Positions 10,593-40,747 of a DNA stretch of 64,000 bases are shown here, one piece after another (within the stretch, counting starts at the first letter, position 1; each line of letters begins with the position of its first letter). The DNA comes from Armatimonadota bacterium. GTDB taxonomy: Bacteria; Armatimonadota; HRBIN16. Location of the stretch: contig BPGT01000001.1 of assembly GCA_026003175.1 (NCBI GenBank), forward strand, positions 906,839-970,838, written 5' to 3'. A model generated the notes under the pieces. The model was not told where the DNA came from and made no database searches. It saw only the letters and a list, made by a program, of their open reading frames with translations. The position numbers were made by a program, and so were the translations under genes.

Positions 10593-10660
10593 GAGGTGTG
10601 CGAGAATGGTTGTACAGCTGCTCATAGCGCAGGGAGAAGATATTTTCCCGCTTCCCTAAA
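10593..10660 (+). repeat. Decayed left half of the MITE-like element
   Basis: GAGGTGTGCGAGAATGGTTG and the following bases up to CATAGCGCAGGGAGAAG align with gaps to the left 70 bases of the MITE. The right half is absent. It lies immediately upstream of the flagellin promoter. Confidence 0.5.
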
Positions 10661-10683
10661 GAACCCAGCAACTTTACCGATAA
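10657..10683 (+). promoter_or_regulatory. Sigma-28 (FliA/SigD) promoter of flagellin
   Basis: TAAAGAAC (10657-10664), 11 bases, then ACCGATAA (10676-10683). This is close to the sigma-28 consensus TAAAGTTT-N11-GCCGATAA with the exact spacing. Transcription should begin near 10689-10690. Confidence 0.85.
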
Positions 10684-10688
10684 TCAGT

Positions 10689-10776: not shown

Positions 10777-12255
10777 ATGAGTTTACGCATTAACACCAAC
10801 ACCGCCGCAATGAACGCGCTGCGGAACCTGACCAACACCTCTGACATGTTTGCGCGTTCTATCGAGCGGTTATCTTCGGGACTGCGCATCAATCGTGGCG
10901 CAGATGACCCCGCAGGGCTGATTATCTCCGAAAACCTGCGCGCCCAGATGGTGGGATTGGCACAGGCAACTTCCAATGCACAGGATGCAGCAAACCTGGT
11001 GAAGACTGCCGAAGGAGCACTGGACGAAATCCATAACCTGCTGCGCACCATGCGACAACTCGCGGTGCACGCGGCGAACACGGGCGTGAACGACCTCACC
11101 GCCGTTCAGGCAGACCAGACCCAAATCCGCTCCGCTCTGGAAAGCCTCAACCGCATCGCCGAACAGACCCAGTTCGGTACCAAAAAGCTGCTGGACGGAA
11201 CCGCAGGCATCTCCGCCCAGGTCACCGATACCGCACGACTGGCGGGCATCTTCATGGGGAGCACCTTCAACGGCGTCATCGTGCAAAGCGGCGATGTCAC
11301 CATCACCGTCAACAACGCTGCCACCCGCGCTCAGGTGCTGGGCACTGCTACCTATGCCAGCGTCAACGCCTCCATCTCCACCGTCGGCGGCGGAACCAGC
11401 GGCGCAGGAGGCACGGTGGTCATCAACGGACAGTCCATCACCGTCTCGGGCAATGACACCGTGCAGACCCTCATTGACCGCATCAACGCGCTGACCAGTG
11501 TGACCGGTGTGAGCGCGATGTTCAGTTCCGGCAACGGCAGTGGCGTGGTGGTGCTGACGCAGGTGAACTACGGAGCGAACTTCAGCGTGCAGGCGAACCA
11601 GAGCGCGACGTTGCTGTTTGCGTCGGGCACGTCCAGTTCCAGCACGGGTGTCGATGCGGTGGTGACGGTTTCGGTGACCACATCGGCTGGAGTGACCTCT
11701 GCGACGTTCACGGGAGGTCGTGCTTCTGGCGACAGTGGTTTGAAGGTGAAGGACGCCTACGGCAACACGTTGTTGTTGACGGAGGCAGGCAACAGCACGG
11801 CGATTAGCAACGCGCGGGTAGCGGTGGTCTCGGCGCAGAGCTTGGTGTTCCAGATAGGCGCGAACGCAGGGCAGACAGCACGCATTTCGCTGCGCGACAC
11901 ACGCGCCAGCCAGCTGGGTACCACGGTCATAGCCAACAAGTCGTTACAGGACATCGATGTGACCACCCAGCAGGGTGCGCAAGATGCCATCCGCATCATC
12001 GACGAGGCGATTTCGCAGATTAGCCAGGTGCGTGGCAATATTGGTGCTTTCCAGAAACAGGTACTGGAGAGCACGATGCGTTCATTGAACGTTGCCCGCG
12101 AGAATCTGGCAGCCTCGGAGAGCGCGATTCGCGACACCAACGTTGCCGAGGAAGTGATGAACTACACGAAGTTGCAGATTCTGCAGCAGGCGGGCATGGC
12201 GGTGCTGGCACAGGCGAACGCCGCGCCGCAAGCGGTACTGTCCCTCCTGAGGTAA
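10777..12255 (+). CDS. fliC: Flagellin
   Basis: The 492-residue protein is the filament subunit exported by the flagellar type III system. The N terminus has the conserved flagellin D0/D1 sequence (INTNTAAMNALRNL, SIERLSSGLRIN, ADDPAGLIISENLRAQ). The C terminus has RENLAASESAIRDTN and ends QANAAPQAVLSLLR. The central ~250 residues are Ser/Thr/Gly/Val-rich variable domain, making it larger than minimal flagellins of about 270 residues. AAGGAGGAG precedes the ATG. Expression is predicted from the sigma-28 promoter at 10657, with a structured leader that may give post-transcriptional control. It stands alone here; its anti-sigma factor FlgM is at 40.1 kb. Confidence 0.96.
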   Translation: MSLRINTNTAAMNALRNLTNTSDMFARSIERLSSGLRINRGADDPAGLIISENLRAQMVGLAQATSNAQDAANLVKTAEGALDEIHNLLRTMRQLAVHAANTGVNDLTAVQADQTQIRSALESLNRIAEQTQFGTKKLLDGTAGISAQVTDTARLAGIFMGSTFNGVIVQSGDVTITVNNAATRAQVLGTATYASVNASISTVGGGTSGAGGTVVINGQSITVSGNDTVQTLIDRINALTSVTGVSAMFSSGNGSGVVVLTQVNYGANFSVQANQSATLLFASGTSSSSTGVDAVVTVSVTTSAGVTSATFTGGRASGDSGLKVKDAYGNTLLLTEAGNSTAISNARVAVVSAQSLVFQIGANAGQTARISLRDTRASQLGTTVIANKSLQDIDVTTQQGAQDAIRIIDEAISQISQVRGNIGAFQKQVLESTMRSLNVARENLAASESAIRDTNVAEEVMNYTKLQILQQAGMAVLAQANAAPQAVLSLLR

Positions 12256-40058: not shown

Positions 40059-40088
40059 TCGCGGGGGCACACCACTGCGCCCCCGCGA
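40059..40088. terminator. Terminator hairpin
   Basis: TCGCGGGGGC and GCCCCCGCGA form a 10-bp GC-rich stem with a 10-base loop, five bases after the DHOD-like stop and upstream of the convergent flgM end. Confidence 0.65.
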
Positions 40089-40142: not shown

Positions 40143-40460
40143 CTACCGCACGCTGTCGGCGATAGTGCGCCGAACGATAAGGTCGGCAATCTCCGCGGAG
40201 GAGACGTTGTACTCGCCCGCCTCAATCTTGCGGCGAAGCTCTTGCACCATCTCTTCTCGCACTTCCGGTATTTCGTCCAGAATGAACTTGATTCGCCGGA
40301 TTTCCTGTGCGCGGGGAGAAAGCTCCACCGAAACGGCGGGAGGAAGCTCCTCCTGAGCGTCAGCTGGCGGAGGGGCAGGCAACACTGCCGCACCCACCCT
40401 GCCCGTGCGGCTTAACTGCAACACCCGGCTGTACTCGTCCAGCGATATTTTCATGCTCAT
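40143..40460 (-). CDS. flgM: Anti-sigma-28 factor FlgM
   Basis: The 105-residue protein has a disordered-looking N-terminal half and ends with RAQEIRRIKFILDEIPEVRE, REEMVQELRRKIEAGEYNVS and SAEIADLIVRRTIADSVR, the helices by which FlgM binds sigma-28. FlgM holds sigma-28 inactive until the flagellar hook is finished and FlgM is exported. Two in-frame ATGs (40460 and 40454) follow GGAGG. The leader contains a c-di-GMP-I riboswitch and upstream lies a sigma-28-like promoter, so FlgM would limit its own sigma factor under second-messenger control. Confidence 0.88.
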   Translation of the reverse strand: MSMKISLDEYSRVLQLSRTGRVGAAVLPAPPPADAQEELPPAVSVELSPRAQEIRRIKFILDEIPEVREEMVQELRRKIEAGEYNVSSAEIADLIVRRTIADSVR

Positions 40461-40474
40461 CCTGCCTCCTTCAA

Positions 40475-40612
40475 CGACGCTCCTGCGGAGATGCGTCGTG
40501 TCGCTCGGCAGAACTTCGGCAGCCGGGCGATCATATCCCGACCCTCGTCGGGACTTAGACCCCTGTAGCTTTGCGTCCCCACATTTCTGTGGGTTTGCCT
40601 TTATCGGATCCG
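40475..40612 (-). promoter_or_regulatory. Cyclic-di-GMP-I (GEMM-I) riboswitch and expression platform of flgM
   Basis: The minus-strand RNA reads AAAGGCAAACC, then a CCACA-GAAA-UGUGG hairpin with a GNRA tetraloop, then GGGACGCAAAGC, a second hairpin (GUCCCGAC/GUCGGGAU) and CCCGGCUGCCGAAG. These are the ordered conserved elements of the GEMM-I aptamer (about 40511-40612). Downstream, ACGACGC/GCGTCGT (40475-40500) forms a hairpin just before the GAAGGAGG ribosome site, with no T run. Control of translation is therefore more likely than termination. The direction of the response cannot be read from sequence. Confidence 0.85.
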
Positions 40613-40626
40613 CCTGTCACTATGCA

Positions 40627-40654
40627 TTATCGGCAAAGCTTTCGAGAAACTTGA
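40627..40654 (-). promoter_or_regulatory. Sigma-28-like promoter of flgM
   Basis: On the minus strand TCAAGTTT (40647-40654), 12 bases, GCCGATAA (40627-40634). The -10 is a perfect sigma-28 element, and the spacing is one base longer than usual. The predicted start is only a few bases before the riboswitch aptamer. Confidence 0.72.
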
Positions 40655-40747
40655 GGGTTGCAACCACCCATTTTCTCATATTTTTTCCACCGTGCAGTAT
40701 AGCAAAAAAGCCGCAGCTATTGCAAGCGGTGCGCTAACAGCGGGCAG

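Follow-up and report, generated by a model that had tools for sequence, protein, structure and literature searches.

The flgM locus and its flagellar context

The 64,000-nucleotide stretch of Armatimonadota DNA that we analysed (the window) carries on its minus strand a short gene, flgM, preceded by a structured leader. The open reading frame (105 codons, 40460 to 40143) lies directly 3' of the aptamer described below and encodes FlgM, the anti-sigma-28 factor, with its conserved C-terminal domain (PF04316, 56.1 bits against 25; TIGR03824, 49.7 bits against an equivalog cut-off of 40.75), confirming the identity given to the gene in the original prediction, which had been made from the bare sequence. 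The interval assigned there, which stops at 40654, fits the leader and misses the extent of flgM, which runs on to 40143. The first ATG of the frame is at 40460; the other species of the genus share a start ATG that corresponds to 40454 in the window (MKIS...), and flgM may be translated from it. On the 3' side of the gene a GC-rich hairpin (TCGCGGGGGC...GCCCCCGCGA, 40061 to 40088, minus strand) may serve as a terminator both for flgM and for the gene converging on it, and flgM looks monocistronic. The same genome encodes FliA, that is sigma-28 (TIGR02479, 261.5 bits against a cut-off of 189.6), three flagellin-type genes and ten GGDEF domains. One flagellin gene begins in the window near 10777, and the second of the genome is on another contig (C2).

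A complete c-di-GMP-I aptamer precedes flgM

Scanning the whole window with cmscan against Rfam gave a single gathering-level match, the c-di-GMP-I (GEMM-I) riboswitch aptamer RF01051, at 40609 to 40515 on the minus strand. The original prediction had placed a complete GEMM-I aptamer in front of flgM, to be checked with the c-di-GMP-I covariance model. The match proved clearly significant (score 77.6 bits, gathering threshold 35, E 1.6e-13) and spans the complete model, positions 1 to 87, with no non-standard pairs flagged. This E value and the recurrence of the aptamer across families, described below, rule out a chance match. It is the sole RF01051 match in the 4.1 Mb genome, and a search for c-di-GMP-II (RF01786) gave no match in this genome or in the control genomes, so that it is no proof of absence. 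Among 21 homologues, P2 and P3 are kept by compensatory changes, which affect both sides at 14 of the 23 consensus pairs, and across nine species of the genus the aptamer is near-identical whereas its flanks drift. The cmscan alignment contains a GAAA tetraloop in P2 and its receptor CUAAG...UAUGA in P3, into which the loop presumably docks. The closing helix P1 adjoins the binding core and is formed by GGCGGA (40614 to 40609) with UCUGCC (40512 to 40507); it is pairable in all nine species, its 5' strand reading GGCGG except for GGUGG in one of them.

The aptamer is a typical representative of an established class, and by its sequence it should bind c-di-GMP. GEMM-I variants that bind 3',3'-cGAMP are known in Geobacter (PMC8835794), and the aptamer might sense that dinucleotide or both. 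We regard this as very unlikely, given that the best Rfam match is the c-di-GMP-I model and that ten GGDEF domains are encoded in the genome. Further, the position that we take to set ligand specificity, G20 of the Vc2 aptamer, is a G in the window aptamer (AAAGGCAAAC).

Two candidate promoters upstream of the aptamer

A sigma-28-type promoter, TCAAG-N16-CCGATAAT, can be read on the flgM strand at 40654 to 40626 (complete sequence TCAAGTTTCTCGAAAGCTTTGCCGATAAT), as originally proposed. Judged on consensus alone the call was weak, since the pattern carries one mismatch and about 0.56 occurrences per window would be expected of a version with two mismatches, and we accepted it only with comparative support. 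At this site CCCTAAAGTT...TTTGCCRATAAT is conserved in the genus's eight other species, and sigma-28-type elements recur in the flgM leaders of other families. The pattern TMAAG-N15-GCCRATAAT has three exact matches genome-wide (4.1 Mb; none in a reversed control), and one of the other two precedes flagellar rod-type genes. A perfect copy, TAAAG-N15-CCGATAAT, at 10657 to 10684 on the plus strand, precedes the flagellin gene in the window, so that TAAAG and GCCGATAA-type elements about 15–16 nt apart are common to the flgM leader and the flagellin promoter. Genus conservation, the rarity of the pattern in the genome, the flagellin copy and the presence of FliA together strengthen the assignment. 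From the geometry of this promoter the transcript would start at about 40620, which puts the P1 helix (40614) some 6 nt downstream and agrees with the earlier expectation that the aptamer begins a few bases after the start. The remaining one of the three strict sigma-28 matches in the genome (G000:C1:1499296-1499324) lies within or beside a polysaccharide-export-like frame; it may be a chance match or a late-flagellar link to exopolysaccharide.

Farther upstream, and unmentioned in the original prediction, a consensus scan found a possible housekeeping (sigma-A-type) promoter, TTGCAA...TGC-TATACT, at 40725 to 40696 on the minus strand. It fits 9 of 12 consensus positions and has a TG ahead of the second hexamer, and CTTG and TGyTATAmTG are invariant in the eight species of the genus that have this region. 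Because of this conserved element, flgM may have two promoters. Salmonella flgM has two promoter types, which the upstream element recalls.

A predicted helix over the ribosome site excludes P1

The segment between the aptamer and flgM contains the ribosome-binding site, AAGGAGG, and a 3' arm, GGCAGGAU (40466 to 40459), which together occupy 40471 to 40459 on the minus strand. Free-energy folding of the leaders of nine species gave, in nine of nine, an 8-bp helix between GUUCUGCC (40514 to 40507) and GGCAGGAU, covering the end of the Shine-Dalgarno sequence and, in the window species, the first AUG. The pairing was not part of the original prediction. Since the last six bases of GUUCUGCC are the 3' strand of P1, the two helices are mutually exclusive. 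In the ligand-free ensembles of the nine species the sequestering helix has a probability of 0.96–1.00 and P1 of 0.00; when the aptamer and P1 were imposed, accessibility from the ribosome site to the AUG rose in eight of nine. In the ninth, G005, the forced fold pairs the Shine-Dalgarno sequence and leaves it unexposed.

Both arms are invariant in the nine species (16 of 16 positions, against 14 of 38 in the remaining 3' leader; Fisher p 8.8e-6), although the role of one arm in the ribosome site and of the other in P1 could explain part of this. With the arms unchanged, the sequestering helix shows no covariation within the genus. Enclosed by it is the hairpin that had been noticed beside the ribosome site, ACGACGC/GCGTCGT (40499 to 40493 with 40480 to 40474, minus strand), and it stood up to comparison, three of its pairs showing both-sided changes among the nine species. 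No U-tract follows this hairpin in the genus, and no intrinsic terminator was seen in the sequence 3' of the aptamer; the only match of the terminator scan is on the opposite strand and is the P2 helix.

The sequestering arm being shared with the 3' strand of P1, ligand binding would free the ribosome site. By nearest-neighbour energies, which omit ligand and tertiary contacts, the free fold is favoured by 8–13 kcal/mol over the one with aptamer and P1, so that switching would have to be largely kinetic and aided by co-transcriptional folding. The original prediction gave no direction for the switch; the comparative structure predicts that in this genus c-di-GMP turns translation of FlgM on.

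The aptamer-flgM link is widespread in Armatimonadota

We surveyed 61 Armatimonadota genomes (that of the window, nine of the same genus and others of the phylum). Of these, 35 have GEMM-I, 39 have FlgM and 31 have both, and the aptamer stands directly upstream of flgM in 24 of the 39 FlgM-bearing genomes, which belong to ten families. By coordinate matching, these 24 aptamers lie on the strand of the FlgM match, 129–230 bases ahead of it; three have scores close to or under the cut-off, though at the right position (G020, 34.0 bits; G033, 36.0; G046, 30.6). Within the genus, the order promoter, aptamer, flgM is kept in nine of nine species where either element was found. In G008, an 80% complete assembly and the one genome of the genus that lacks the pair, we found neither aptamer nor FlgM.

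We also scanned about 85,000 species genomes for the exact pattern of a sigma-28 promoter followed by GGCAAAC and obtained 87 stretches. Seventeen of them continue into a GEMM core and then FlgM, and 12 more have a GEMM-I confirmed by Rfam (RF01051 or RF03167). The labels of these 29 sigma-28 promoter/GEMM-I/flgM loci all read Armatimonadota (or its classes or orders) or just "bacterium". Close relatives of our locus are Bacterium HR16 (HRbin16), Chthonomonadia bacterium Ch118 (Chthonomonadia being a class within Armatimonadota) and Armatimonadetes RSWS16.

Outside the phylum, none of 64 FlgM loci has the aptamer. The first control was a sample of 148 genomes of Desulfobacterota (the phylum of a Desulfatibia genome), with FlgM in 89 and GEMM-I, often in several copies, in 64. 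Model R1 found no aptamer at the best 30 FlgM loci of this sample or at five FlgM loci taken from further genomes outside Armatimonadota, and in the same run found one at 19 of 30 Armatimonadota FlgM loci. Among the Desulfobacterota GEMM matches listed, none of those compared by eye adjoins FlgM. The second control came from the phylum to which a Peptococcaceae genome belongs; 102 of 119 genomes had FlgM, and 29 FlgM loci lacked the aptamer. As the link is missing from the loci sampled in a GEMM-rich phylum, abundance of GEMM alone does not yield it. The recurrence of the arrangement in ten families and its absence from the 64 outside loci favour the proposal that c-di-GMP tunes expression at flgM.

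The aptamer might also be real and yet act mainly in premature termination or RNA stability, or be a relic, leaving FlgM output to the promoters. The 15 FlgM-bearing genomes of the phylum without the linkage, and a platform hairpin without a U-tract in the window's genus, are in keeping with such a role, which we nevertheless hold to be quite unlikely. The near-identity of the aptamer in nine species amid drifting flanks and its recurrence in ten families argue for selection on sensing.

Several stretches of the pattern scan from outside the phylum do not show this arrangement. Two combine the promoter with a FlgM-like protein, with no GEMM seen (L116, Hydrogenedentota; L137, Halomonas), and seven have a GEMM-like core and no FlgM in the stretch read (L107, L118, L122, L123, L127, L142 and L162). 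Among the latter, L142 and L162 (Atribacteria), L118 (Actinobacteria) and L127 (Actinomycetota) have a sigma-28-like promoter and the core in front of genes that by eye look like cupin/mannose-6-phosphate isomerase, glycosyl hydrolase and type IV pilin genes. Closely spaced tandem GEMM-I pairs were also observed away from flgM in several Armatimonadota (G019, C116 and C93; G027, C49; G040, C3; G057, C175).

Other families use different leader sequences

In leaders of other families the 3' arm of the aptamer is again complementary to the ribosome site: UUGCCGUCCUC to GAGGAGGCAA in G029, UUGCCGUCUUUC to GAGAAAGGGGCAA in G052 and UUGCCGCGCUU to AAGCGAGGCAA in G021. When arms and ribosome sites were swapped among 17 leaders, with related leaders unweighted and the two segments overlapping in the shortest ones, native pairs averaged -15.2 kcal/mol against -12.5 for mismatched pairs (permutation p 1.5e-4). 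Leaders of three families (G034, G020 and G033) showed no good pairing in this test. The long GC-rich helix over the ribosome site could also serve chiefly as a temperature sensor, with the aptamer as a secondary input; HRbin16 and other MAGs that may come from hot environments are among the named relatives. We give this only a slight chance, because one arm coincides exactly with the 3' strand of P1 in a conserved ligand aptamer and because other families achieve the same sequestration with different sequences.

A second group of 14 leaders has instead a U-tract preceded by a segment complementary to the 5' strand of the aptamer itself (G013, G027, G028, G040, G051, L093, L104, L108, L110, L119, L130, L140, L149 and L158; the stored stretch of L104 ends too soon for FlgM to be seen downstream). 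An example is AAAGGCAAAC with GUUUGCCUUUU, and the helices have energies of -11.5 to -18.8 kcal/mol. In this second clade the 5' strand GGCAAAC pairs with GUUUGCC-UUUU, a helix absent from most other leaders. A helix of this kind breaks up the binding core and resembles a terminator, so the ligand should block termination, and the platform of the second clade is predicted to be an ON switch as well.

These observations bear on the sign of the switch. Riboswitches of the c-di-GMP-I class with both signs exist (PMC6366702), and another part of the leader could capture the ribosome site in the bound state, as the forced G005 fold illustrates, so that c-di-GMP would lower FlgM and release sigma-28. 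We consider this OFF arrangement improbable. Sequestration is seen in the free state in nine of nine species and accessibility increases with aptamer and P1 in eight, the unrelated terminator-type platform in the second clade likewise points to ON, and high c-di-GMP would, under an OFF switch, promote late flagellar genes.

A predicted ON switch inside the sigma-28/FlgM loop

Taken with the conserved helices, this makes it likely, in our judgement, that the leader is a translational c-di-GMP-I riboswitch that switches FlgM synthesis on. Sigma-28 (FliA), perhaps together with the upstream housekeeping promoter, would transcribe flgM, the aptamer being the first structured element of the leader. 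In cells lacking c-di-GMP, GUUCUGCC would pair with GGCAGGAU over the ribosome site and start, and little FlgM would be made; with c-di-GMP bound, GUUCUGCC would be retained in P1, leaving the ribosome site free and allowing FlgM to be produced. FlgM would then bind sigma-28 and silence the late flagellar genes, so that the feedback loop would close strongly only at high c-di-GMP, in the sessile state. An ON effect on translation gives a coherent outcome, in which high c-di-GMP means more FlgM and less sigma-28 activity, and it agrees with the usual repression of motility by c-di-GMP (PMC6366702). Extended to the phylum, the proposal is of a late-flagellar checkpoint at which active sigma-28 makes flgM mRNA and c-di-GMP decides whether FlgM follows, the link having been kept, with the same ON sign, across a change of platform; we see the chances of this wider reading as even.

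Usually c-di-GMP stops swimming by way of proteins, or by a riboswitch that silences an early flagellar operon. The route suggested here is of the opposite kind, in that c-di-GMP would switch on the late sigma factor's inhibitor, expressed from the promoter of that same sigma. If true, a conditional negative feedback loop would be contained in one short mRNA leader, conserved in a phylum whose motility has hardly been studied by experiment, and with a testable sign and named nucleotides. It would also be a natural case of a regulatory link retained while the RNA output mechanism changed.

Comparison with known systems

The flgM gene of Salmonella and E. coli is transcribed by the sigma factor that FlgM inhibits, and we know of no riboswitch described before flgM in these species or in C. 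difficile. All three have the same feedback loop, to which the Armatimonadota version adds a second-messenger sensor. In C. difficile flgM is SigD-dependent, and the c-di-GMP-I riboswitch Cd1 of this organism lies upstream of the flgB operon (PMC5386303, PMC6366702). Cd1 resembles the predicted flgM switch in aptamer class, in having a flagellar target and in giving fewer flagella at high c-di-GMP. It differs in being a transcription-terminating OFF switch with a sigma-A promoter, controlling a whole early operon that includes sigD, whereas the flgM switch has an anti-sigma factor as target, a sigma-28-type promoter and a predicted ON sign.

The Vc2 riboswitch, in front of a tfoX-like gene of Vibrio cholerae, has the same aptamer as the flgM leader, with GNRA tetraloop and receptor, and differs in target and genomic setting. 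Its expression-platform sequence is unrelated to that of the flgM leader. Vc2 reportedly does not act via transcription termination (PMC6366702).

In the open literature that we searched, we found nothing linking a c-di-GMP riboswitch to flgM and no description of riboswitches in Armatimonadetes; an earlier mention in a supplementary table of the original GEMM surveys is conceivable. A GEMM-I aptamer placed on an anti-sigma factor, inside the sigma-28/FlgM loop, therefore appears to be new, in that we did not find it described.

The window aptamer belongs to the main RF01051 family. In the Fimbriimonadales (L092, L103, L128, L160 and L163) the flgM-linked aptamer matches instead the variant c-di-GMP-I-GGC, RF03167, and at several of these loci flgM lies behind an open reading frame with a UvrB-looking C-terminus.
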